A program made the position numbers and the translations under genes. Shown here piece after piece: positions 18,066 through 39,813 of a stretch of 43,080 nt of DNA. The stretch's first letter is position 1, and each line of letters opens with the position of its first letter. The DNA is taken from the NCBI GenBank assembly GCA_017881445.1, contig JADGQX010000008.1, positions 1 to 43,080 of the forward strand. The letters are read 5' to 3'. Source of the DNA: Gemmatimonadota bacterium (GTDB taxonomy: Bacteria > Gemmatimonadota > Gemmatimonadetes > Longimicrobiales > RSA9). The notes beneath the pieces were generated by a model. It ran no database searches. It was not told the DNA's origin and saw nothing but the letters and a program-made list of their open reading frames with translations.

Positions 18066-18679
18066 AACGAGTGGCGAAGGCAGTCGGCCGGGTGGCGCTG
18101 AGCCTTGAAGGAGAGCGGCGACGGTGGGTCGTGAGACGATCAGGCTTACGGTGCTCAGGCGTGATGTTCCTCTGTCTCCTTGGTCCCAGCCACGTTGGCG
18201 CACAAGGCGTTGGCGGAGACTCCATTGCTCACATCCAGGTGATGGCCATCCGCGCCCTGGGCGTTCCAATGCGCTCAGTGACATGCGTGGGTGTTTCCAC
18301 AACCGGGGACGAGGATCCCCGACGCGCCGCCGACCCGGATTCGGTGCTTCTCTCGAAGCTAGGGTGGCTACCCGGATTATTGCCGAACTCCGCTTGCGTG
18401 TTTGTATCGGGCGAGGCGCACCAGGCGGTTTTCAGCCGCGTTAGTCATAAGCCAGGCGTGCTTGTGACCGTCACTGTCCCGGTTTGGTATTCGAGTTCGA
18501 CCGAGTGGGTGGTTGACGTGCAGTACTATGTCGGAGGACTGTTCGCCATGGGAAAACGCTGCACGCTGAAACGTGCACCTGACGATGCCAGGATGTCCTG
18601 CCCCCGGCAGGTGGATCTCCTGACTATCGTACCGAATCACCTACGTCGTCTAACCCTGTCGTATTCACGAGCGGCGTAG
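18062..18679 (+). CDS. Secreted protein of unknown function
   Basis: A 205-residue frame starting in an ATGA overlap with the mannosidase. A signal-peptide-like segment (SGVMFLCLLGPSHVGA) lies at residues about 33-48, so GTG 18131, which would put it at the N-terminus, is a plausible alternative start. The mature part has scattered cysteines and beta-rich stretches (VLVTVTVPVWYSSSTEW) but no family I recognise. From about 18.13 kb the base composition is less GC-rich than in the mannosidase, marking the edge of the compositional anomaly that continues to 21.9 kb. Confidence 0.55.
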   Translation: MKRVAKAVGRVALSLEGERRRWVVRRSGLRCSGVMFLCLLGPSHVGAQGVGGDSIAHIQVMAIRALGVPMRSVTCVGVSTTGDEDPRRAADPDSVLLSKLGWLPGLLPNSACVFVSGEAHQAVFSRVSHKPGVLVTVTVPVWYSSSTEWVVDVQYYVGGLFAMGKRCTLKRAPDDARMSCPRQVDLLTIVPNHLRRLTLSYSRAA

Positions 18680-19032
18680 CGGGAGGGTAGTGTAGGGGGA
18701 AAGCCACATGGCGCATCTGTCGTTGCGGCCGTAGGATATGGGTTGCGAGATCCAATCCAAACGACAGCGACGCCAAACACGCCATGGGTGAAGAACAAGC
18801 TACGCTGTTTGCGCTGGGTTTCAACCGGTCGCTGCGGGTGGAAATCGTTCGCTTTGTTCGTCGTTTGTTTCGGCCGTCAATATGACCGCCAAATCGTTCC
18901 CATCGTCGGGAAGCCGGTTCACCTTACGCCGTGAGCTAATCCGTTTATATGGGGCGTAACCCTACGGCGGATAACAGATGCCTCCGCTCACAGCCTGGCC
19001 GGTTCAGTAATCCCGTTGTAGTGGCGCGCGAG
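18680..19032. other. Intergenic region at edge of low-GC insert, 353 bp
   Basis: The stretch lacks an intact gene and is clearly poorer in GC than the flanks. It contains the transposase-like N-terminal scrap at 18784-18885. No terminator with a T-run was seen, though two genes converge here. Confidence 0.6.
18784..18885 (+). pseudogene. Possible IS1380-family transposase N-terminal remnant
   Basis: A 33-codon frame reads MGEEQATLFALGFNRSLRVE and then diverges to a stop at 18883. The LF-x-FNRS-x-RVE pattern is how I remember many IS1380-family transposases beginning, and here it breaks off straight after that signature. The rest of the transposase and its terminal repeats are absent. The identification rests on about 20 residues only. 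Confidence 0.4.
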
Positions 19033-20280
19033 TCAAACACCCCAGAGCCTTCCCGTTGCCATGGTCTCGTCCATTTCCGAATATTTTTTCAGCACTTCGG
19101 TGCGATACTCGGGCGAGATCGAAACGGCCTCTGCGGCAATCCGCTCGCAGTAGCCGCATGCCTGGCAGTTCGTGGAGGCGCAGTCACGGTTGCGAAAGCC
19201 GTCCAGAAAATCCTCCGGGATCTTCCGCGCCTCCACGCGGATCGGACACTCCGACAACGGCGAGAGCCAGCCTTGCAGGCGCGCCAGGTCGAGCATCGGT
19301 TTCATTCGAAGCGGATTCACCTGCCGCGGTTTCCAGAAGTGACGCAGACTCCAGAGCGATTCCTTGCGGACGGGTTGCTTGAAGCCATACGACAGCAGCA
19401 GTTCCGCCAGATTGCCATCGAACCGCCGCTCGCTATAGGCTTTGACCCGCCGTAGCAGTTCCGCCGACGGAATCCCCCGTTCGAGCAGCTTGAAGGTCGT
19501 ATACCCCATCGCTTCATAGACGGCGAGGTCCTCCGGCCGGATCCAAGCTGACTTGATGAACTGCGACGGATCAGTCAGGCGTGTCCGCGAGCAACGCAGG
19601 AAGCAGTAGTCGATGAAGAGCGTGCTGGTGTCGTCAGATGCATGGGCGAAACCGTTCTGATGATAACTTTGCATCGGACAGTTCATCAGGCAGACGTGGT
19701 TTGCGATCAGTTCCAGATCGCAACGGACCGCTTTGCGGATGGCCGCCAAGCGGCGAAAGTTCCGGTTGATCGAGAAGCTCTCCAGCACGATCGCATCCGC
19801 CCCGAGTTCTTCCCAAAAGCGGGCGCGCCGGGGGGTGTCCACCTGGGCGTAAATGCCGACCCTTACCTTGAACTCGGGAAAACGGCGTTTGACCAGTTCC
19901 AGCAGAAAAGGGGTGGAGACAGTGACCCGGCGCACGCCCAGTTCGCCGAGTTTGGTCAGCAGCGCCGTCACCCGTTTCTGCCAGGGGCGGGTCCATTCGC
20001 GGTTGCCGAAACAGGCGCCATTCAAAAGATAGTTGAAGGCGATGCCATGACGGTCGAGCACGCTTATATAGCTCTGCAGATCTTCTTCCGAAAGCGGTGT
20101 CGCCAGATAGCGAGGACGGCCGCTGCTGACACCGTCGTTGGGGAGCTTGCCGTAGACTTCATCAACCGGGTAGGCGGCGAGCGCGGGAATCAGTTCCGGA
20201 TCGTAGTTCGCTGCCAGTGAGAACTTGGTCGCTCGGGGTATGGCAGGCGCGTCGGCTGGATCGGAGCCGGTTGTTTTCAT
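19033..20280 (-). CDS. U32-peptidase-like Fe-S protein
   Basis: A 415-residue protein similar in layout to the U32 peptidase / UbiU-UbiV group: a barrel-like N-terminal half (FSLAANYDPEL ... VSTPFLLELVKRRFP ... RVGIYAQVDTPRRARFWEELGADAIVLE), then cysteine pairs HVCLMNCPMQ (C197, C201) and DYCFLRC (C226, C230). A C-terminal cluster C367-C372-C375-C378 could hold another Fe-S centre. Members act in tRNA/rRNA hydroxylation or O2-independent hydroxylation rather than as proven proteases, so the substrate is open. It lies 12 bp after the alpha/beta hydrolase gene and is the last of three genes in the less GC-rich insert. Confidence 0.75.
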   Translation of the reverse strand: MKTTGSDPADAPAIPRATKFSLAANYDPELIPALAAYPVDEVYGKLPNDGVSSGRPRYLATPLSEEDLQSYISVLDRHGIAFNYLLNGACFGNREWTRPWQKRVTALLTKLGELGVRRVTVSTPFLLELVKRRFPEFKVRVGIYAQVDTPRRARFWEELGADAIVLESFSINRNFRRLAAIRKAVRCDLELIANHVCLMNCPMQSYHQNGFAHASDDTSTLFIDYCFLRCSRTRLTDPSQFIKSAWIRPEDLAVYEAMGYTTFKLLERGIPSAELLRRVKAYSERRFDGNLAELLLSYGFKQPVRKESLWSLRHFWKPRQVNPLRMKPMLDLARLQGWLSPLSECPIRVEARKIPEDFLDGFRNRDCASTNCQACGYCERIAAEAVSISPEYRTEVLKKYSEMDETMATGRLWGV

Positions 20281-20292
20281 AAAAGAGCGACC

Positions 20293-21117
20293 TCAGGTCT
20301 TCAGGAATGCCAGCAGATCGGCGTTGAGCTTGTCCTTGTGCGTGGCGGCGAGGCCATGCGGTGCGCCCGCGTAAATCTTCAGGGTCGCGTTCCGCACCAG
20401 TTTTGAGGAGCGGAGAGCCGCAGCGCCGATCGGCACAATCTGGTCGTCGTCGCCGTGAACGATCAGCGTCGGCACGTCGAACTTTTTCAGGTCTTCGGTG
20501 AAATCCGTCTCGGAGAATGCCTTGATGCAGTCGAAGGTGTTCTTGTGACCGGCCTGCATTCCTTGGAGCCAGAACGAGTCGATCATGCCCTGCGAAACCT
20601 TGGCCCCGGGCCGGTTGGCTCCAAAGAACGGACCGCTCGCGAGATCCTTGTAGAACTGCGAGCGGTCGGCGCTGGAACCGAGGCGGATCGCGTCAAACTT
20701 CTCCATCGGCAAGCCGCCGGGATTGGCCGGCGTTTTCAACATCAGCGGCGGAACGGCGGCGATCAGCGCGGTCTTGGCCACCCGTTTCGTGCCGTGGCGG
20801 CCGATATAGCGGGCAACTTCGCCGCCGCCCGCGGAGAAGCCGATTAGGACGGCACGCTTCAGGTCGAGCGTTTCGATGAGCTCCGAGAGGTCGTCGGCGT
20901 AGGTGTCCATGTCATTGCCATTCCATGGCTGGCTCGACCGGCCATGGCCGCGGCGGTCATGGGCAATGCAGCGATAGCCGGCGGAGGCCAGGAACAGCAT
21001 TTGAGCCTCCCAGCTATCCGCATTGAGGGGCCAGCCGTGGCTGAACACCACCGGCTGCCCCGTGCCCCAGTCCTTGTAGTAGATCTGCGTTCCGTCTTTC
21101 GTCGTAATCGTGCTCAT
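20293..21117 (-). CDS. Non-heme chloroperoxidase-type alpha/beta hydrolase
   Basis: A 274-residue cytoplasmic hydrolase of the cofactor-free haloperoxidase/esterase group. The catalytic triad is visible: nucleophile S95 in IGFSAGGGE, an aspartate in [10 protein letters not shown] (about D225) and H254 in GAPHGL; the oxyanion segment is SHGWPL. Length and order match the family. The natural reaction is usually ester or lactone hydrolysis; perhydrolase activity is incidental. AAGGAAAAAC precedes the ATG. Codon use is less GC-extreme than in surrounding operons, suggesting transfer with its neighbours. Confidence 0.9.
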
Positions 21118-21207
21118 TGTTTTTCCTTTTTTCGACGTGGGTCGTCGACCATTCCCATCATTCTAACGCTCCCGCTCACCTATCCACCCCATTGCGCCGT
21201 CGACTCC

Positions 21208-21798
21208 CTATTTTGTCGTTTCACCGTCGAAGTGCTCGTTGTCGGCCTCCGCGGCGGCGCGGGTATGGTGGATGACGCCATCCCGATGATTCGGCGGCGC
21301 ATAAATCGTATAGAGCTTCAGTGAAACACTGCCGGTATTGATGATGTTGTGATTCGTCCCAGCCGGGACGACCACCGCGAAGCCCGGTCGGATCGCCGTC
21401 CGCACGCCATCGAGCACCACCTCACCGGAGCCCTCCTCGACGCGGAAGAACTGGTCGAGCTTGTGGACTTCCGCCCCGATCTCTTCCTTGGGCTTTAGCG
21501 CCATGAGCACGAGCTGGCAATTTTCGGCCGTGTAAAGCACCCGACGAAAATCGTTATTCTTGACGGCGAGACTCTCGATATCCTGCACATATCCTTTCAT
21601 GGTGCCTCCGTGTTCGTTCATCGTTTGTTTCGGTTCCTTTATTTCCTGGGAGCGTTCCGCTGTTTTGTCCCCCGTCATGTTTTTCCCCTCCGCTGGCTCG
21701 GCGGATCGCGCTCCGACGGGGAACCAGATCACCAGGGCCAAGGCGAAACTGGAACGGATGAGGCTCGTATGCGTTTGTTGTTTCATGTCCGATTGCAT
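21208..21798 (-). CDS. Cupin-domain protein with N-terminal signal sequence
   Basis: The full 196-residue frame begins with a signal peptide (LIRSSFALALVIWFPVGARSA), then a polar linker, then a cupin barrel from MKGYVQDIES at residue 67. Metal ligands of the cupin are partly visible (EIGAEVHKLDQFFRVEEGSGEV and GTNHNIIN). An internal ATG at 21600, exactly where the cupin begins, is preceded by GGAGG, so a 130-residue cytoplasmic form may be made as well as, or instead of, the exported form. It heads the three-gene set. The function of this cupin group is not established. Confidence 0.8.
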   Translation of the reverse strand: MQSDMKQQTHTSLIRSSFALALVIWFPVGARSAEPAEGKNMTGDKTAERSQEIKEPKQTMNEHGGTMKGYVQDIESLAVKNNDFRRVLYTAENCQLVLMALKPKEEIGAEVHKLDQFFRVEEGSGEVVLDGVRTAIRPGFAVVVPAGTNHNIINTGSVSLKLYTIYAPPNHRDGVIHHTRAAAEADNEHFDGETTK

Positions 21799-21868
21799 TT
21801 CTCTTGCCGTTTTGGTTCGCGGTTGGCGTTCGACTGATCTAACGCCACGCCGGTTCCCGATGTCGCTA

Positions 21869-21900
21869 CCTCGGTGTCCTCCGTGTCCTCGGCGGTGAAA
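21869..21900 (-). repeat. TTTCACC...GAGGACAC dispersed repeat
   Basis: On the minus strand the 32 bases begin TTTCACCGCCGAGGACACGG and continue with GAGGACACCGAGG. About 26 of 31 positions match the segment at 38352-38382. Similar purine-rich phrases occur scattered through many environmental genomes; here it marks the right edge of the low-GC insert. Confidence 0.6.
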
Positions 21901-21930
21901 GATGTTGCCGTTGGAGGCGAGCGCAGCGCC

Positions 21931-21969
21931 AAAAAAAACGACCGCCGCCTGTGCAGCCAGGCGGCGGTC
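21931..21969 (-). terminator. Intrinsic terminator (minus strand)
   Basis: A perfect 12-bp stem (21940-21951 with 21958-21969, GACCGCCGCCTG) with a 6-nt loop is followed on the minus strand by eight T (21931-21938). It is about 400 bp after the DUF4015 stop, so it ends either that transcript or a separate RNA. Confidence 0.9.
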
Positions 21970-22366
21970 ATGGTAGGAAACCCCCGCTTGCGACGGGGAG
22001 GCAGGCCATCCAGTGGGATTACGAGGGCGGCGGTCCCCGCACGGGCTCGCCGCCCCGGTACCGGCAACCCTTGCGCAGCGCGAGCCGTGGCGGCGTCAGG
22101 GGTACCTTCGACCCCGGTCCGGGTTGGCGCCCGGCAGCGGGATCACGTCATGGACCGCGGCGAGCCGCGGCGGGCGTTCCGGCCTCACCCGTGCTTCCGG
22201 GGCTGCCCTGCCCCGGCGAGTGACGGCCCCAAGAACTCAAGCGCCGGCCACCGGCGGCCGGCGGCCGCCCGTGCGCGCGCAAAGGAGAAGCTCACACGAC
22301 CACCGCCACGGCAATCCGTCCTCGACAGCGTCGTCGACAGCCGCGCTGAGGAATGCAGCCTGCAAC

Positions 22367-23620
22367 TTATTGTCGGTGCCCGGCGGCGGGTGTAGGAGGA
22401 ACCTTTAATCTCGGGGAAGATTTGCCGGACGTGTCCGCCCGCGCGGCTGCCGGGGCTGCCGCCGGGACGTCCGGCTCGCCCGCGGGCCGCAGGGCGGCGA
22501 AGGTGAAGTTGCTGCCCGGGTTCCACAGGATCCACTCGCGGATGCCGGAGTCGTAGACCGCGCGGATCTGCTCGCGCACCTCGGCGGCGCCGTAGCGGGG
22601 CTTGCCCATGGTGAAGTCCTGCAGCCAGGGGCGGATGGCCGCGGGGTGCGGCACCTTGCTGCGGGAGAGCGCGTACTGCATGGCCGTGTGGACGGTGCGG
22701 TAGGGGTGCGCGTTGGGATGCTCCATGTCGTAGTCGCCGCGGTAGAAGTGCGACGGGTAGACCATGGGGAGCAGCACATCGGCCACGTCCACCAGGCGCT
22801 CCCACTTCTGGCCGATGCCCATGTCGTCGTCGGCCGAGACCGTGGCGCCGAAGACGTCGGCGGTGATGGGCACGCCGTAGGGTGCGAGCTGGGCCTTGGA
22901 GTACTGGATGAACTCGCGGATCGCGTCCATGCGGCTGCGCCCGCGGGCGTCGGAGAAGAGCTGCGTCGCCCGCAGGTTCGGCACCACGTCGGGGAAGCGC
23001 ACGTAGTCCCACTGGACCTCGCCGAAGCCCAGCTCGAGCGCCTCCCGGGCAATGGCGATGTTGTAGTCCCAGACCTCGCGGTTGTACGCGTCCACCCAGA
23101 AGAGCCCGTCGCTGTCGCGCCAGAGGGAGCCGTCCTTGCGCCGGATCGCCCAGGCCGTCTTCGCCCGGGCCAGCGTCGTGTCCTTGAAGCAGACGATGCG
23201 GGCAATGGGATAGACGCCGTGCGCCTTCAGCTGGGCCAGCACCCCGCGGATGTCGCGGATGTAGTCGCGGTCGGCGCCCACCTGGCGCACCAGCGGCAGG
23301 CCGCTGCGGTAGCTGACCAGCCCGCCCTCCTTCACATCGATCACGAAGGTATTGATCTCGGTGCGGTCGGCCACGCCCAGCAGCTTCGCCAGCTTGCGCG
23401 GCGAGCCGGCGGCCCAGGCGTTGAGGTACAGTCCCCGCACCTGCGCGGGCTTGGGCACGTGCAGCGCCGCATTGCGCTCGCGGGGCGAGCCCTGCGCCCC
23501 CAGGGCACCCGCGCCGGTCCCGGCCAGGGCGAGCAGCAGCAGCGCCGCCCGTTGCAACCGGCGCGCGCCGGCCGGGACGCCGGCGTCGCAGGTGAGCCGC
23601 CGGCGGCGGAAGTGGATCAT
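22367..23620 (-). CDS. DUF4015 putative glycoside hydrolase, secreted
   Basis: A 417-residue protein with a signal peptide (RAALLLLALAGTGAGALGA) and a TIM-barrel of the DUF4015 (putative glycosyl hydrolase) family. Typical segments are VRGLYLNAWAAGS, INTFVIDVKEGGLVSY, IARIVCFKD, GFGEVQWDYVRFP and DVLLPMVYPSHF; the acidic residues in QWDYVRFPD and DVFGATVSADDD are likely catalytic. The start at 23620 has AGAGGA at good spacing and begins just before the signal. It follows the CysO-MoeB fusion by 16 bp. The polymer cleaved is unknown; action on cell-wall or capsule glycans is a guess. Confidence 0.85.
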   Translation of the reverse strand: MIHFRRRRLTCDAGVPAGARRLQRAALLLLALAGTGAGALGAQGSPRERNAALHVPKPAQVRGLYLNAWAAGSPRKLAKLLGVADRTEINTFVIDVKEGGLVSYRSGLPLVRQVGADRDYIRDIRGVLAQLKAHGVYPIARIVCFKDTTLARAKTAWAIRRKDGSLWRDSDGLFWVDAYNREVWDYNIAIAREALELGFGEVQWDYVRFPDVVPNLRATQLFSDARGRSRMDAIREFIQYSKAQLAPYGVPITADVFGATVSADDDMGIGQKWERLVDVADVLLPMVYPSHFYRGDYDMEHPNAHPYRTVHTAMQYALSRSKVPHPAAIRPWLQDFTMGKPRYGAAEVREQIRAVYDSGIREWILWNPGSNFTFAALRPAGEPDVPAAAPAAARADTSGKSSPRLKVPPTPAAGHRQ

Positions 23621-23636
23621 CGTTGGTCCTCTTGCG

Positions 23637-25100
23637 TCAGTAGCGCGGTAGCGAGGGATCGACGTCGTTGCTCCAGGCGGCGATGCCGCCGCGCAGGTGC
23701 GAGATCTTCCCCAGCCCGGCGCCGCGCAGCGCTTCCAGGGCGCGGCCGCTGCGTCCGCCGGTGTGGCAGTAGAGCACGACCGGCCGGTCGCCGTCCAGCT
23801 CCGCCAGGTGCTCGCCCAGCTGGCCCAGGGGGAGCAGGCGCGCGCCATACGGCTCCAGGTTGGCAATGCGCCACTCGAAGGGCTCCCGGATGTCCACCAG
23901 GTCGATGGGCTCGCCCGCGTCCAGCAGCTGCTTCAGCTGGAGGGGCGTGAGCTCGGCCGGCAGGCCGGCGGTCGCGGCGGCAGCCGGGGCGACGACGTCG
24001 CCCGACGGCTCCGCTGCCGGGCGCAGCCCGCAGAAGTCCTCGTAATCGATGAGGGCCGTGATGCTGGGGTGCTCGCCACAGACGGGGCAGTCCGGGCTCT
24101 TGCGCAGCCGCAGCTCGCGGAACTTCAGCTCGAGCGCGTCGAAGAGCACCAGCCGGCCGAGCAGCGTCTCGCCCGCGCCCAGGATCAGCTTCATGGCCTC
24201 GAGCGCCTGCAGCGAGCCAATGATGCCCGGGAGCACGCCCAGCACGCCCCCCTCGGCGCAGCTGGGCACCAGTCCGGGCGGCGGCGGCTCGCGGAAGAGG
24301 CAGCGGTAGCAGGGGCCATGGCGCCCATCGAAGACCGAGACCTGCCCCTCGAAGCGCAGGATCGAGCCGTAGACGTACGGCTTGCCCAGCAGCACGCAGG
24401 CGTCGTTGACCAGGTAGCGGGTGGGGAAGTTGTCGGTGCCATCCACAACGATGTCGTAGCCGCCGATGACCTCCAGCGCATTGTCGCTGTCCAGCCGGAG
24501 ATCGTGACGCAGAATGCGCACGTGGGGGTTGAGGTCCTCCAGCCGGGCGGCGGCCGCGTCGGTCTTGCGCCGGCCCAGGTCCGACTCACCGTAGAGGATC
24601 TGGCGCTGCAGGTTGCTGGCGTCCACCTGGTCGAAGTCCACCAGCCCGATGGTGCCCACGCCCGCGGCGGCCAGGTAGAGCGCGACGGGCGAGCCCAGGC
24701 CGCCGGCGCCCACGATCAGCACCCGCGCCGCCTTGAGCCGGGCCTGTCCCTCGGGGCCGACTTCCGGCAGGGCGAGGTGGCGCGCGTAGCGGCCCAGCTC
24801 CGCGGGGCTCAGCGGCAGCGGCTCCTCCCCCCCGGCAATGCTCGGCACGATCACCAGTCGGTCTCCATCCCGGAGCGGCGTGCGCTCGCCCTCGAGCCAG
24901 CGCACGTCCTCCTCGTTCACGTACACGTTCACGAAGCTGCGCAGCCGGCCGTCGTCGGAGAAGAGGTGGCGACGCATGGGCGGAAACGTCGTCGCCAGCT
25001 CCTGCAGCGCCGCGGCGACGCTGCCCGCGGCGACCTCGACCTCCGTCCGACCGCCGGTATACCCGCGCAGCGGCGCCGGGATTCCCACTTTGACGCTCAC
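23637..25100 (-). CDS. CysO-type ubiquitin-like carrier + MoeB/ThiF E1 + rhodanese fusion
   Basis: One 487-residue protein with three modules. Residues 1-91 match the Mycobacterium sulfur carrier CysO closely (IP-x2-LR-x2-TGG, FVN-x-YVN-x-EDVR, DGD and the closing AGG). Residues about 97-345 are an E1-like adenylyltransferase: GAGGLGS nucleotide loop at 131, Zn cysteines C264/C267 and C338/C341, and C281 in SCAEGGVLG as likely thio-transfer residue. Residues about 385-487 are a rhodanese with active C445 in YCHTGGRS. In Mycobacterium CysO is separate and MoeZ (E1+rhodanese) thiocarboxylates its C-terminal glycine. Here Gly90-Gly91 is internal and must be exposed before it can be adenylated. 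The GTG start overlaps the JAMM stop (GTGA). A MoaD role for molybdopterin is the alternative, but the sequence is CysO-like. Confidence 0.9.
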   Translation of the reverse strand: MSVKVGIPAPLRGYTGGRTEVEVAAGSVAAALQELATTFPPMRRHLFSDDGRLRSFVNVYVNEEDVRWLEGERTPLRDGDRLVIVPSIAGGEEPLPLSPAELGRYARHLALPEVGPEGQARLKAARVLIVGAGGLGSPVALYLAAAGVGTIGLVDFDQVDASNLQRQILYGESDLGRRKTDAAAARLEDLNPHVRILRHDLRLDSDNALEVIGGYDIVVDGTDNFPTRYLVNDACVLLGKPYVYGSILRFEGQVSVFDGRHGPCYRCLFREPPPPGLVPSCAEGGVLGVLPGIIGSLQALEAMKLILGAGETLLGRLVLFDALELKFRELRLRKSPDCPVCGEHPSITALIDYEDFCGLRPAAEPSGDVVAPAAAATAGLPAELTPLQLKQLLDAGEPIDLVDIREPFEWRIANLEPYGARLLPLGQLGEHLAELDGDRPVVLYCHTGGRSGRALEALRGAGLGKISHLRGGIAAWSNDVDPSLPRY

Positions 25101-25582
25101 GTGGCGCCCTCCCCGCCCACGAGCTCCTCCTCCCCGAAGCCGGACCGGTCCTCCCGCAGGCACCAGGCGCGGGCCAGCCCCCGGCTCACGTCCACGATCA
25201 CGTACGTGTACCACGGCCACGCCCATTCCAGGTCCGTCGCCGACGGGACCGGTCCCGCCCCTGGATGGGAGTGGTAGAAGCCCACCACCTCCAGCCCCCG
25301 CAGCGCCGCCTCCGCCTCCGCGGCGCGGACGAGCGCGGGCGCGATGCGGTAGCGCGCGGGACTCGCATCCTCGTTGGGCAGCGCCAGCGCCCGCAGCACG
25401 CGCCGCTCGTCCGCGCCGGCGCCCTGGCCGATCAGCGCGCCGCAGCACTCGGCCGGCGCCGCGGCGCGTGCATGCTCCAGGATGGCGCCCAGCACCGGCT
25501 TCGGCAGGCGCACGCGGCGCGCTCCCGGCGCGGGCCCCGGGGCGGCACCGGTCGGCGCGGGAATCTGCGCACTTTCATCCAT
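25097..25582 (-). CDS. JAMM/M67 metallopeptidase (Mec-like)
   Basis: A 161-residue Zn peptidase of the JAB1/MPN group. The full JAMM set is there: E45 in AECCGALIG, then HSHPGAGPVPSATD with H104, H106, S114 and D117. Small bacterial members (Mec in Mycobacterium) release cysteine or peptides from CysO-type carriers after Gly-Gly. It directly precedes and overlaps the CysO-E1-rhodanese fusion, so the fusion is its obvious substrate. The start at 25582 has AGAGGTG at proper spacing; the first 20 residues are a Pro/Ala-rich leader without a membrane segment, so it is cytoplasmic. CysM, the third partner in Mycobacterium, is not in the window. Confidence 0.92.
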   Translation of the reverse strand: MDESAQIPAPTGAAPGPAPGARRVRLPKPVLGAILEHARAAAPAECCGALIGQGAGADERRVLRALALPNEDASPARYRIAPALVRAAEAEAALRGLEVVGFYHSHPGAGPVPSATDLEWAWPWYTYVIVDVSRGLARAWCLREDRSGFGEEELVGGEGAT

Positions 25583-25608
25583 GGCCGCACCTCTGTACGG
25601 AAGCCACG

Positions 25609-27828
25609 TCAGAACGACACCCGGACGCCGGCGTTCAGCACCCGCCCCTCCAGGGGCGCCCATTCGTCGGTGGTCCAGCGGCCGCCCAGCCCGGGCGTGG
25701 CGCGCAGCAGCGGGTCCCAGCGGGTCTGGCGCACGTCCGTGAGATTCTCCGCGTTGGCGAACAGCTCGAAGCGGCCAACCCGCTTGGCGGCAATGACCTC
25801 CACGGTGGCGAAGCCCGGGGTGAAGGTGCGGTAGGGATCGTCCTCCACGCGCTGGCGGCCGGTGTAGAAGACCTCCAGCGCGACGCGGGCCCCGGCTTCG
25901 TCCTCCTCCCAGGCGACGTCCACGCCGCCGGCGTTGCGCGGCGTCAGCGGAATCTCGATGCGCGTGCCCTCGTCGGGCGAGAATTCCGTCGCCTGCTGGT
26001 GCGAGAAGGTGGCGGTGACCAGCAGCGGCTCACGGGCGTAGACCGCGAACAGCTCCGCGCCCGCCGTGCGGATCGGCCCGGCCGCGTTCACGAGCCGGAA
26101 GGCGGTAGAATCGCCGGGACGCGGCACGCGCGCAAAGGGCGGCGGCACGCGCGCGCTCAGCACCGGGTTCTGCACGCGCACGGCGAACAGGGTGCCGCTG
26201 AGCTGGAACGGCCCCACCTCGCCGCCCACGTCCAGCGACGCGCTGGACCCGGACTCCGCGCCCAGACGACCCGGCGGCGCCAGCCAGGTGAAGCCCACCT
26301 CCTCCACCTCCGACGACAACGGTGTGGGCGCGAAGAAGCCACGCCCGCCCGAGAGCCGCACGCTCCAATCGTCGCCCAGGCGGTAAAGCGCCGACACGCG
26401 CGGCGACAGGAACGTGCCGTAGCGGTCGTGCCGGTCGAGGCGGAGGCTCGCCTCCAGCGCCACGGCCTCGATGGGCGTGTACGTGTCCTCGGCGAAGAGC
26501 GATGCCGTGCCGAAGTCGAAGCCGAAGGTGTCGCGCGGGGCCGTCCGCAGCCCCTCGTACTCGCCCGAGAGGCCGAGCACCGCCGTGTTCCGGCTGCGGG
26601 CGAGCGACAGGGTCGCCTCGGCGAAGGCGTTGCGGCGGCTGTCCGTCTCGCTTGCGGCACCAAAGCGCCGGCCGTGGTGCGTCAGCATCGCCGACGCGCG
26701 CACGCCCAACAGCGTCGCGGGCGTCAGCAGCAGGTGGGCGACGACGCCGACGTCGCCGTGGCGCGTATCGAGCCCGTCCTCGAAGGGCACTCCCGACGGC
26801 GCCACGGCGCCCGGCACGGTCCCGCCCCGGCGGTTCTCCGCCATCCAGCCCGCCGTCAGCAGCAGCGAGCTGCCCCCCGGCGACGTCCAGAACAGTCGCG
26901 GCCTGGCCTCGGCGCGGTCGTACCCGGCCACGTCGGTCCAGCCGTCGCGGTCCACGTCCTCCTGCCCCTGCCGGTGCGCGCCGCCCAGGAAGGTGTATCC
27001 CCAGCGGTCGCTAAGGCGGCGCGACAGCCAGAGGAGCCCGTCCGTGCCGGCGCGCGTCGTCTGGCTCAGCAGGAGCCGCCGCCCGTCGGCCGGAGTGCGG
27101 GAGATCAGGTCCACGACGCCGCCCAGGGCGGACGGGCCGTAGAGCGCCGTGGCGGCGCCCTTGATCACCTCGACCTGGCGCAGGTCCAGCGGCGGCGACT
27201 GGACCAGGCTGAACGATGGCGCGTGCGCGCCGTACAACGGGAGGCCGTCCGTCAGCAGCAGCGTGTAGCGCCCCGGCAGTCCCTGCACCCGGATGGTCGC
27301 GCCGCCCAGCCCGGGCGCCACGGGCTGCACCTGGATCCCACCCATCTCGACCAGCAGGTTGGTCATGTCGCCCGGGCGCGTGAGCGACTTCTCCTCCACG
27401 TCCTCCGGCGCCAGCACCTCCACGCGTGTGGGCTCCTGCTCGATCCGCACCTCGGAGCGGGCCGCGTGCACGATGATGGGCGGCTCCTCCTGGGCGACCA
27501 CCATCAGCTCCACGGAGATCGCCGTGTCCGCCGACGGGCGCAGGAGCAGGGCGACGGTGTCCACGCCGTAGCCGGGCTTCCAGACCAGCACGCGCCGCAG
27601 GCCGGCCGGCAGCGTCAGCCGCGCGCGGCCCGCGCTGTCGCTGAGCACGAGCACGCCACCGCTGCGCACCTCCGCGCCCGGGAGCGCGCGGCCTTCGGCC
27701 GCCACGGAGACGGTCACGTGCCCGGGTGCCCCCTGGGCGGCCAGCGGATGGCGCGGCGCCATCAGGAATCCGGGAGCCAACATCAGGGCGGCCGCGATCC
27801 CCGCCGTGACACGTGCGGACTTCGTCAT
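25609..27828 (-). CDS. TonB-dependent outer-membrane receptor
   Basis: A 739-residue outer-membrane transporter. After a signal peptide (ITAGIAAALMLAPG-like, ending LAAQG) comes a carboxypeptidase-regulatory-like beta domain (about 35-115), the plug domain with IRVQGLPGRYTLLLTDGLPLYG and [23 protein letters not shown], and a 22-strand-type barrel ending in the outer-membrane terminal phenylalanine (VRVSF). A short DNA-like calcium motif (DVDRDGWTD) sits in a barrel loop. The ligand (siderophore, cobalamin, metal or glycan) cannot be read from sequence. It lies 16 bp after waaA and 26 bp before the JAMM gene, so probably one transcript. Confidence 0.93.
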   Translation of the reverse strand: MTKSARVTAGIAAALMLAPGFLMAPRHPLAAQGAPGHVTVSVAAEGRALPGAEVRSGGVLVLSDSAGRARLTLPAGLRRVLVWKPGYGVDTVALLLRPSADTAISVELMVVAQEEPPIIVHAARSEVRIEQEPTRVEVLAPEDVEEKSLTRPGDMTNLLVEMGGIQVQPVAPGLGGATIRVQGLPGRYTLLLTDGLPLYGAHAPSFSLVQSPPLDLRQVEVIKGAATALYGPSALGGVVDLISRTPADGRRLLLSQTTRAGTDGLLWLSRRLSDRWGYTFLGGAHRQGQEDVDRDGWTDVAGYDRAEARPRLFWTSPGGSSLLLTAGWMAENRRGGTVPGAVAPSGVPFEDGLDTRHGDVGVVAHLLLTPATLLGVRASAMLTHHGRRFGAASETDSRRNAFAEATLSLARSRNTAVLGLSGEYEGLRTAPRDTFGFDFGTASLFAEDTYTPIEAVALEASLRLDRHDRYGTFLSPRVSALYRLGDDWSVRLSGGRGFFAPTPLSSEVEEVGFTWLAPPGRLGAESGSSASLDVGGEVGPFQLSGTLFAVRVQNPVLSARVPPPFARVPRPGDSTAFRLVNAAGPIRTAGAELFAVYAREPLLVTATFSHQQATEFSPDEGTRIEIPLTPRNAGGVDVAWEEDEAGARVALEVFYTGRQRVEDDPYRTFTPGFATVEVIAAKRVGRFELFANAENLTDVRQTRWDPLLRATPGLGGRWTTDEWAPLEGRVLNAGVRVSF

Positions 27829-37048: not shown

Positions 37049-37122
37049 CGCGGGGTGGAGCAGTCTGGTAGCTCGCCGGGCTCATAACCCGGAGGTCGCG
37101 GGTTCAAATCCCGCCCCCGCCA
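37049..37122 (+). tRNA. Initiator tRNA-fMet (CAT)
   Basis: Anticodon CAT at 37083-37085. Position 1 is C and faces C72, so the first pair is open, and the anticodon stem has three consecutive G-C pairs; both mark the initiator. CCA is not encoded. Confidence 0.96.
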
Positions 37123-37130
37123 TTCTCCCG

Positions 37131-37149
37131 GCCCTGGCTTGGCCAGGGC
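37131..37149 (+). terminator. Weak hairpin after tRNA-fMet
   Basis: GCCCTGGC-ttg-GCCAGGGC, followed by TCGTTTG. It has a short loop and a poor T-run, so it is probably a processing or attenuating structure. Confidence 0.35.
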
Positions 37150-37293
37150 TCGTTTGTGAGGAGCCTTGATGCCGGCTCGACCGTCCCCGCGAGACAGCTC
37201 GCGATCCGTGCCGCCGGGCAGCCGGTGGCAGCGGTCGTGGACGGCGACGGCGGGAGAGGGATAGCGAGCGCGAGCCGCGATCGCGATTCCCCC

Positions 37294-37323
37294 GCCCGCG
37301 CCGCTTCAGCCGCGCGGGCTTTT
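37294..37323 (+). terminator. Probable intrinsic terminator between tRNA-fMet and tRNA-Phe
   Basis: GCCCGCGC (37294-37301) pairs with GCGCGGGC (37312-37319) and TTTT follows. No promoter is seen between this point and tRNA-Phe at 37342, so partial read-through is likely. Confidence 0.5.
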
Positions 37324-37341
37324 CATCGGCGGGAGGTCCGG

Positions 37342-37414
37342 GGCCAGGTAGCTCAGTTGGTAGAGCACACGACTGAAAATCGTGGTGTCGGCAGTTCGAC
37401 TCTGCCCCTGGCCA
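37342..37414 (+). tRNA. tRNA-Phe (GAA)
   Basis: Cloverleaf with acceptor GGCCAGG/CCTGGCC, anticodon GAA at 37375-37377, T-loop TTCGACT and discriminator A. No encoded CCA. Confidence 0.97.
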
Positions 37415-37417
37415 TAT

Positions 37418-37490
37418 AGGTCCGTAGCTCAAGTGGTAGAGCACCGGTCTCCAAAACCGGGGGTTGCAGGTTCGAGTCCTGCCGGGCCTG
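37418..37490 (+). tRNA. tRNA-Trp (CCA)
   Basis: Anticodon CCA at 37451-37453, acceptor AGGTCCG/CGGGCCT with one G-T pair, and discriminator G as expected for Trp. It starts 3 bp after tRNA-Phe. No encoded CCA tail. Confidence 0.97.
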
Positions 37491-37520
37491 CTGGGTGACT
37501 TGTTTGACAGACGGTTCGAG

Positions 37521-37593
37521 GCCCCCATCGTCTAGTGGCCTAGGACGCGGCGTTCTCAGCGCCGAAACCGGGGTTCGATTCCCCGTGGGGGTA
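37521..37593 (+). tRNA. tRNA-Glu (CTC)
   Basis: Anticodon CTC at 37555-37557, stem CGGCG/CGCCG, T-arm CGGGG-TTCGATT-CCCCG. The first acceptor pair is G-T. It is the second Glu isoacceptor of the cluster, with TTC at 37739. Confidence 0.96.
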
Positions 37594-37658
37594 TGGCAGC
37601 GCGGGTACGGCCCCCGCCGCGCTGGGGCGATACGTTGGGGGAGGCACCGACGGAGTGT

Positions 37659-37730
<72 letters not shown>

Positions 37731-37738
37731 CCAGTCGG

Positions 37739-37810
37739 GTCCCCATCGTCTAACGGTTAGGACGCCAGCCTTTCAAGCTGGTAACCCGGGTTCGACTCCC
37801 GGTGGGGGCA
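37739..37810 (+). tRNA. tRNA-Glu (TTC)
   Basis: Anticodon TTC at 37772-37774, stem CCAGC/GCTGG, T-arm CCGGG-TTCGACT-CCCGG, discriminator A. Confidence 0.97.
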
Positions 37811-37821
37811 TTGCACAGAGC

Positions 37822-37894
37822 GCGGGCGTAGCTCAGTTGGTAGAGCGTCTGCTTGCCATGCAGAAGGTCGCCGGTTCAAGTCCGGTCGCCCGCT
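37822..37894 (+). tRNA. tRNA-Gly (GCC)
   Basis: Anticodon GCC at 37855-37857, acceptor GCGGGCG/CGCCCGC, discriminator T as usual for bacterial Gly. Confidence 0.97.
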
Positions 37895-37928
37895 CTGAGG
37901 AGCCGCCTGAGGGCGGGTGCAGGACGTG

Positions 37929-38002
37929 GGGGCGGTAGCTCAGCCGGTTAGAGTGCCGGTCTGTCACACCGGAGGTCGCGGGTTCAAATCCCGTCCGCCC
38001 CG
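37929..38002 (+). tRNA. tRNA-Asp (GTC)
   Basis: Anticodon GTC at 37963-37965, acceptor GGGGCGG/CCGCCCC, discriminator G as expected for Asp. Confidence 0.97.
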
Positions 38003-38009
38003 CTCGAAC

Positions 38010-38021
38010 GCTCTTTGACAA
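38010..38021 (+). promoter_or_regulatory. boxA-like antitermination sequence
   Basis: GCTCTTTGACAA, 8 bp after tRNA-Asp, differs by one base from the rrn boxA core of Escherichia coli. It may recruit Nus factors to keep polymerase going through the remaining tRNAs. It also contains TTGACA, but no -10 follows. Confidence 0.45.
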
Positions 38022-38037
38022 CTCGGGTTCGTGATTC

Positions 38038-38059
38038 CGGCCGGCGAATTCGCCGGCCG
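38038..38059. repeat. 22-bp perfect palindrome between tRNA-Asp and tRNA-Ala
   Basis: An uninterrupted self-complementary sequence centred on GAATTC (38046-38051), with arms CGGCCGGC/GCCGGCCG. As RNA it would form a hairpin in the precursor, possibly guiding RNase cleavage; as DNA it is a symmetric binding site. Confidence 0.75.
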
Positions 38060-38063
38060 CCGT

Positions 38064-38136
38064 GGGGCTGTAGCTCAGCTGGGAGAGCGCTTGAATGGCA
38101 TTCAAGAGGCCAGGGGTTCGAGCCCCCTCAGCTCCA
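38064..38136 (+). tRNA. tRNA-Ala (GGC)
   Basis: Anticodon GGC at 38097-38099. The acceptor carries the G3-T70 pair that identifies Ala (GGGGCTG/CAGCTCC). Nearly identical outside the anticodon arm to tRNA-Ala at 38743. Confidence 0.97.
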
Positions 38137-38138
38137 CT

Positions 38139-38224
<86 letters not shown>

Positions 38225-38241
38225 CTGCAGGAAACCGGGTC

Positions 38242-38325
38242 GCCCACGTGCTGGAACTGGTAGACAGGCTGGTTTGAGGGACCAGTGCCGGAAACGGCGT
38301 GGAGGTTCGAGTCCTCTCGTGGGCA
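38242..38325 (+). tRNA. tRNA-Leu (GAG)
   Basis: Anticodon GAG at 38276-38278, class II with variable arm GCCG-gaaa-CGGC, discriminator A. Confidence 0.97.
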
Positions 38326-38351
38326 TTCCGATACCGGCATCCGACGGGACG

Positions 38352-38382
38352 TTTCACCACGGAGTACACGAAGGACACAGAG
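38352..38382 (+). repeat. TTTCACC...AGGACAC dispersed repeat
   Basis: TTTCACCACGGAGTACACGA followed by AGGACACAGAG, in the spacer between tRNA-Leu and tRNA-Arg. It matches the copy at 21869-21900 at about 26 of 31 positions, on the opposite strand. Confidence 0.6.
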
Positions 38383-38452
38383 CGGGATTTGTTGTGGTGA
38401 CGGATGAGTTCCGTGTGGCCTCCGAACGCGAGGCGCCCACGAAGTCCGATAC

Positions 38453-38526
38453 GCGCTCGTAGCTCAATTGGATAGAGCATCTGACTACGGATCAGAAGGT
38501 TACAGGTTCGAGTCCTGTCGAGCGCG
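38453..38526 (+). tRNA. tRNA-Arg (ACG)
   Basis: Anticodon ACG at 38487-38489; the A is normally deaminated to inosine by TadA to read CGU, CGC and CGA. Acceptor GCGCTCG/CGAGCGC, discriminator G. Confidence 0.97.
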
Positions 38527-38530
38527 CCAG

Positions 38531-38614
38531 GGTGGGGTACCAAAGCGGCTAACTGGGGCAGACTGTAAATCTGCTGGCCACCGGCCTACGGAGGTTCGAA
38601 TCCTCCCCCCACCA
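38531..38614 (+). tRNA. tRNA-Tyr (GTA)
   Basis: Anticodon GTA at 38565-38567, long variable arm typical of bacterial Tyr, discriminator A. It starts 4 bp after tRNA-Arg. Confidence 0.97.
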
Positions 38615-38625
38615 CTCGTGTCAGG

Positions 38626-38700
<75 letters not shown>

Positions 38701-38742
38701 TACCGCCGGCCGGGTTCCGCCGGGCGGGCATAGAAGGAAATT

Positions 38743-38815
38743 GGGGCTGTAGCTCAGCTGGGAGAGCGCTGCAATCGCACTGCAGAGGCCAGGGGTTCGA
38801 GCCCCCTCAGCTCCA
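38743..38815 (+). tRNA. tRNA-Ala (CGC)
   Basis: Anticodon CGC at 38776-38778, G3-T70 identity pair, near-duplicate of the GGC gene at 38064 apart from the anticodon arm. Confidence 0.97.
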
Positions 38816-38863
38816 TCGGTCGTCTCACCCGTTCCGGGCCGCCCGTGTCGGCGCGGGTGAGGA

Positions 38864-38909
38864 GGGCGGGCGGAAGCCCACGGCACGAGCCGTGGGCCCG
38901 GCACCCGCC
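38864..38909 (+). repeat. Extended hairpin between tRNA-Ala and tRNA-Thr
   Basis: GCCCACGGC (38876-38884) pairs with GCCGTGGGC (38889-38897) around ACGA, with a further outer GGGCGGG/CCCGCCC pairing. No T-run, so more likely a processing structure than a terminator. Confidence 0.55.
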
Positions 38910-38958
38910 CGAGAGACCGCCGGTCGGCGCCAGGGCGCGCTGGCTTGCGACTGACCGC

Positions 38959-39030
38959 GCCACCGTAGCTCAGGGGTAGAGCACTCGATTCGTAATCGAG
39001 CGGTCCTCGGTTCAAATCCGAGCGGTGGCT
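38959..39030 (+). tRNA. tRNA-Thr (CGT)
   Basis: Anticodon CGT at 38991-38993, normal T-loop TTCAAAT (contrast the GGT gene), acceptor GCCACCG/CGGTGGC, discriminator T. Confidence 0.97.
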
Positions 39031-39118
39031 CTCCCGTCTGGCCCGGCGGGCGCGCACGAGAGTGGGACGAGCGGGCCGGACCCACGGGTCGGCGCTGGCC
39101 GACGGACGGACGGCCCAT

Positions 39119-39191
39119 GCGGGAGTAGCTCAGTTGGTAGAGCATCAGCTTCCCAAGCTGAGGGTCGCGGGTTCGAGCCCCGTCTCCCGCT
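39119..39191 (+). tRNA. tRNA-Gly (CCC)
   Basis: Anticodon CCC at 39152-39154, acceptor GCGGGAG/CTCCCGC, discriminator T. Confidence 0.97.
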
Positions 39192-39288
39192 CTGGAACAG
39201 TGCAGTGCGACGGCCAAGGCAAGCCCGCGCACGTTCCCGTCAACGTGAACGGTTGCGCTTGCGCTTGCGGCCGTTTGTTTTGCTTTTC

Positions 39289-39361
39289 TGCCCCTTGGTG
39301 TAATTGGCAACACGCCTGACTCTGGATCAGGAGAGTCCTGGTTCGAACCCAGGAGGGGCAA
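39289..39361 (+). tRNA. tRNA-Gln (CTG)
   Basis: Anticodon CTG at 39322-39324, acceptor TGCCCCT/AGGGGCA with the weak T1-A72 pair typical of Gln, discriminator A. Confidence 0.97.
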
Positions 39362-39397
39362 CTTGGAGGGAGGCCGCGCCGCCGCGGCCGACGGTTT

Positions 39398-39483
39398 GGA
39401 GAGGTAGCCAAGTGGTTACGGCAACGGTTTGCTAAACCGTCGGGCTCGCAAGGCCCGCGTGGGTTCGAATCCCACCCTCTCCG
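39398..39483 (+). tRNA. tRNA-Ser (GCT)
   Basis: Anticodon GCT at 39431-39433, long variable arm, acceptor GGAGAGG/CCTCTCC, discriminator G as in Ser. Confidence 0.97.
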
Positions 39484-39529
39484 CTGAGGGTTGCCGCCGC
39501 AGGCGCTCCGGCGACCCGACTGGAGCATT

Positions 39530-39615
39530 GGACGGGTGTCCGAGAGGCTTAAGGAGCACGATTGGAAATCGTGTGGGGTTAACAGCCCTCGTGGGTTCGA
39601 ATCCCACCCCGTCCG
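39530..39615 (+). tRNA. tRNA-Ser (GGA)
   Basis: Anticodon GGA at 39564-39566, long variable arm, acceptor GGACGGG/CCCGTCC, discriminator G. Confidence 0.97.
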
Positions 39616-39656
39616 TGGCCGTGGCGGGGTTCGACCGCCGGCAGGACAGCGACAAG

Positions 39657-39730
39657 CGGGGAGTAGCTCAGCCCGGTAGAGCACTGCGTTCGGGACGCAG
39701 GGGCCGCTGGTTCAAATCCAGTCTCCCCGA
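39657..39730 (+). tRNA. tRNA-Pro (CGG)
   Basis: Anticodon CGG at 39691-39693, acceptor CGGGGAG/CTCCCCG, discriminator A as expected for Pro. Last tRNA of the cluster. Confidence 0.97.
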
Positions 39731-39772
39731 CTGAATTCGGGTGGTCGTCCCCGAGACCGCCCGGCAGCATCG

Positions 39773-39813
39773 AAGGCCCGGCAACGCCATGGCGTTGCCG
39801 GGCCTTTTTGTTT
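39773..39813 (+). terminator. Strong intrinsic terminator of the tRNA cluster
   Basis: A 34-bp perfect palindrome (39773-39806, arms AAGGCCCGGCAACGCCA and its complement) leads directly into a T-rich tract TTTTTGTTTT on the plus strand. Confidence 0.95.

Follow-up and report, generated by a model that had tools for sequence, protein, structure and literature searches.

The DNA analysed here, called the window hereafter, is a contig of 43,080 bases (C398) from a Gemmatimonadota MAG of 4.75 Mb in 420 contigs. Table 1 lists the features around the region of interest. When the minus strand is followed past the spacer and the terminator, the genes come in the order cupin, alpha/beta hydrolase and U32-like protein. 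In our reading of the frame, the likely ATG of the DUF4015 gene is at 23618-23620, and its stop codon is at 22367-22369. Only 16 nt separate the MoeZ stop from this ATG, and therefore the two genes probably form one operon. Judged from its sequence, the DUF4015 protein ends normally, with a C-terminal tail of normal length: counted from the beginning of the conserved WILWNP motif, the stretch up to the stop has 55 codons, compared with 19-290 in relatives. The best matches of the protein with named records are Gemmatimonadota MAGs. For DUF4015, one paper was among the literature matches listed, on Bacillus sporulation (PMC12700454).

Table 1. Features of the MoeZ-DUF4015 region, with window coordinates.
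Feature	Position	Strand	Remark
TonB-dependent receptor gene		-	same strand as the MoeZ-like, DUF4015 and cupin genes
MoeB/MoeZ-like protein (ThiS-ThiF-rhodanese)	23637..25448	-	
DUF4015 putative glycosyl hydrolase	22367..23620	-	Pfam PF13200, E 8.3e-108
GC-rich non-coding spacer, putative 3' UTR	21972..22366	-	DUF4015 stop to terminator
Intrinsic (Rho-independent) terminator	21931..21971	-	stem-loop + U8
Cupin gene	21208..21798	-	next gene downstream of the terminator, inside the low-GC block

A textbook terminator had been proposed for the minus strand in an earlier sequence-only reading of this DNA, and our analysis confirmed it. The two arms of its 12-bp stem (21969-21958 and 21951-21940) are wholly complementary, the loop has 6 nt, and U8 follows, which appears as A8 at 21931-21938 on the plus strand; the stem has 14 pairs if the flanking positions (21971-21938) are counted. 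In a strict scan, with a stem of at least 9 and a T run of at least 6, it was the sole match in the window, and no match was found in 50 shuffled windows. Being stronger than chance, the stem-loop and U run qualify as an intrinsic terminator. A looser scan was performed on the window together with 20 other stretches of the genome (358,769 bases in all). It gave 7 terminator-like sites, and strong intrinsic terminators are therefore rare in this genome. The second site in the window, at 39804, has a 15-bp stem and follows a tRNA array. When compared with the usual intrinsic terminator, the perfect GC-rich stem, the short loop and the unbroken U8 are alike, while two features differ: the strength, which is unusual for this genome, and the position, 397 nt past the stop codon. 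The latter agrees with the earlier remark that the terminator lies far beyond the end of DUF4015.

On the other hand, the description of the spacer as a chain of GC-rich hairpins did not survive comparison with shuffled sequences. Without the terminator, the spacer is 395 nt long; its minus strand folds with z = -1.47 (6 of 100 dinucleotide shuffles were as stable) and its plus strand with z = -0.84 (18 of 100). Among 108 background windows of 396 nt from the same contig, 21 have z of -1.5 or lower, and the mean is -0.49. The whole block including the terminator reaches z = -2.7 or -3.3 in two runs, and we account for these lower values by the terminator being included. This can be followed in overlapping 100-nt windows of the minus strand: z is -4.43 for the window with the whole terminator and ranges from -2.03 to +1.28 for the other 26 of the 27. 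Outside the terminator, neither the shuffles, the contig windows nor the 100-nt scan revealed more structure than base and dinucleotide composition would give, and the apparent hairpins of the spacer are a product of its 72-76% GC. The locus can serve as a calibration case, as at this GC content almost any 400 bases resemble a chain of hairpins by eye, and the one real element, the terminator, is told from its background only through shuffled sequences and neighbouring windows.

The stretch from the DUF4015 stop to the terminator had also been described as free of coding logic, which is borne out. Its six frames score from -0.21 to -0.30 per codon, compared with a mean of -0.20 for the best frame of shuffled sequences and +0.32 for real coding sequence of the contig. 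A hidden protein was rejected as well: nine open-frame fragments that overlap the block or lie close to it, as well as three larger frames, were compared with Pfam and gave no family, with one sub-threshold low-complexity match as the sole hit.

The terminator sits at the edge of a low-GC block. The GC content falls to 58-61% between about 18.0 and 22.0 kb, compared with 64-79% in the other 1-kb bins of the contig, and the genes in this block are those for the U32-like protein, the alpha/beta hydrolase and the cupin. None of 40 relatives was found to have the U32-like gene. As to an empty site, with GH38 beside DUF4015 and no low-GC block, a GH38 match was found in one relative only, on a different contig from DUF4015. 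From its composition and genes, the 4-kb block was probably acquired. Ahead of the cupin gene, in the leader that follows the terminator, there is at 21859-21905 a copy of a dispersed repeat of 30-50 bases (GATGTCGCTACCTCGGTGTCCTC...), which is matched at about 40 other places in the genome. In fuller copies, the inverted repeat TTGTT..AACAACA lies upstream and there is a second palindrome as well; in our reading the repeat resembles a REP-type element. As the cupin leader carries a repeat that is dispersed through this genome, the block can be argued to be resident in the genome and not an assembly error.

The boundary brings in one alternative for the spacer, namely that a gene formerly located after DUF4015 has decayed, the spacer being what is left of it, and that its old terminator was kept when the low-GC block (18.0-22.0 kb) arrived. 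Both the end of the spacer at the block edge and the failure to find the U32-like gene in the 40 relatives would fit such a history. However, no frame has a coding signal or a Pfam family, and tblastn of the block peptides against the collected loci gave nothing better than E ~0.02 apart from the window itself. We regard a decayed gene as quite improbable.

Another alternative is a small RNA gene that is independent of DUF4015, at most about 400 nt long, and has a promoter of its own. What speaks for it is that RNA genes of this genome, too, are followed by strong terminators: besides the site at 39804 after the tRNA array, there is a hairpin after the rnpB/tRNA cluster, another after ssrA, and a T run after ffs. 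The promoter search, however, turned out otherwise. The score was built from our own simple weights on the E. coli consensus and is of the sigma-70 type only. In 22420-21972 the best score is 5.5, and in the stretch added by extending the search to 22900 it is at most 5.1, while 190 background windows have a median of 5.6 and a maximum of 11.3. All four RNA units of the same genome that were used as positive controls (the rnpB/tRNA cluster, the tRNA array, ssrA and ffs) score 10.2-12.3, and every one of their sites has the form TTGAC[AC]-N17-TANNNT. The minus strand from 22900 to 21930 thus has no promoter-like site, and a general scan of the minus strand over 18500-26000 found none either. 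This disfavours a small RNA transcribed separately from a promoter of the sigma-70 type. As neither conservation nor excess structure was found for the block, we consider an independent gene very improbable indeed.

Conservation in relatives was among the points on which the sequence-only reading had made the case for an RNA depend, and no homologue was found. The DNA search covered 394 other genomes of the phylum, 98 other relatives and the genome itself, and returned only short GC-rich matches; those listed are about 20-70 bp long, and the best of them, with E 5e-6, consists of 26 identical bp in a single genome. For DNA of 75% GC, and with so much sequence searched, we judge this match to have arisen by chance. 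The spacer DNA had no matches in plasmids. A genus-specific RNA would be missed in this comparison because no genome of the same genus is among the relatives searched. The downstream context of DUF4015 was compared over 56 loci, 36 of which have the C-terminal motif; without the window itself and two loci at contig ends, 33 rows with a readable stop are left, including the same contig from two collections in some cases (e.g. L031/L060, L033/L061, L039/L063 and L045/L069) and three rows with less than 800 bases downstream. The sequence after DUF4015 differs among the relatives read, with gene names assigned in our own reading. A terminator-like site within 800 nt past DUF4015 was found in just one of the 33 rows (L050), and the terminator is therefore not a conserved partner of DUF4015.

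Known RNA families were also considered. An Rfam search of the whole window at the gathering score, a check that the sequence-only reading had proposed, was carried out and gave 21 tRNAs only, with no family at the block; likewise, 14 DUF4015 neighbourhoods of relatives gave no family at this score. The block was rejected as the RNase P RNA, tmRNA or SRP RNA of this genome, as copies are on other contigs: RNase P RNA on C6, tmRNA on C183, and an SRP RNA match, below the cut-off, on C205. No 6S RNA (RF00013) turned up in the genome, but its model recovers only 5 of 14 controls, so this absence says little. A permissive Rfam search of 21800-22500 listed suhB, ctRNA_pGA1, mir-9235, tfoR and Ms1, all below gathering. 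The suhB/mmgR match (RF00519) covers 22005-21927 (E 0.0036) and spans a small hairpin and the terminator; its 26.1 bits fall short of the gathering score, which is 41. The locus is like this family in having a hairpin and then a terminator hairpin, and differs from it in that the score is sub-gathering and that similarly weak matches, without shared sequence, occur in most controls. The suhB model responds in 12 of 14 control genomes; among 41 genomes, this one included, it gives matches with E of 1 or lower in 18, none of the 41 being above the cut-off. In our reading, eight of the match loci, compared side by side, have no more than a hairpin and a T run in common. We rejected the suhB/mmgR assignment as a generic hairpin-plus-terminator match, below gathering and with no locus specificity.

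The same match enters into a third alternative, a genus-specific small RNA derived from the 3' UTR. In this case the last 80-120 nt would be cut by RNase from the MoeZ-DUF4015 mRNA and act by base pairing, the parts being the small hairpin at about 21982-22005, the single-stranded UUUCCUACC and the terminator, and a promoter of its own would be unneeded. The sub-threshold suhB/mmgR match on 22005-21927 counts in its favour, as does the arrangement of the 3' end, which in general is that of Hfq-type sRNAs. The lack of specificity of the suhB model in both genome sets, the lack of a common sequence in the eight loci and the lack of excess local structure outside the terminator all count against it, and we think it unlikely. 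If there were such a small RNA here, it would be lineage-specific. In a literature search on small RNA and intrinsic terminators, no Gemmatimonad report was among the matches listed.

We consider it likely that the block forms the 3' end of the MoeZ-DUF4015 transcript, with about 400 nt of 3' UTR and an intrinsic terminator, and that termination is plainly intrinsic. RNA polymerase would read through DUF4015 into the GC-rich spacer of about 400 nt, the GC hairpin of 12-14 bp would form, and the polymerase would pause on U8 and release. The terminator would then separate the high-GC MoeZ-DUF4015 unit from the cupin and hydrolase genes of the low-GC block, which run downstream in the same direction. 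Both the co-transcription of the spacer with DUF4015 and the termination in the cell are inferred from the DNA. Three points count against this reading. The first is the length of the 3' UTR. The distance from stop to site is 33, 47 and 97 nt at three of the five sample sites outside the window, compared with 397 nt here; it is 719 nt at a fourth, and the fifth has no upstream stop, while four of these five sites carry a flag for falling within another open frame. The second is that strong intrinsic terminators are rare in this genome and that the other site of the window comes after the tRNA array, so RNA genes too are marked in this way. The third is that the terminator is not conserved with DUF4015 in relatives (one of 33 rows). 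Of the two readings offered earlier, the long regulatory 3' UTR stands as far as a 3' UTR with a terminator fits a transcript end, but nothing shows a regulatory role. The independent structured RNA was not upheld, as the block has no excess structure outside the terminator, no Rfam family at the gathering score, no homologue in the relatives searched and no promoter-like site of the sigma-70 type.

Several other RNA units of the genome were recorded along the way. In the tRNA array of the window, 21 tRNA genes are packed into 2.7 kb (37049-39731), with a promoter-like TTGACA-N17-TAACGT upstream and the 15-bp terminator at 39804. The rnpB gene lies between tRNA genes on C6 (L100); upstream there is a promoter-like site of canonical form, TTGACA-N17-TACACT, and the downstream tRNA is followed by a hairpin. 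A c-di-GMP-I riboswitch is present in the same genome (L123, 4980-5067, minus strand) with 60.7 bits.
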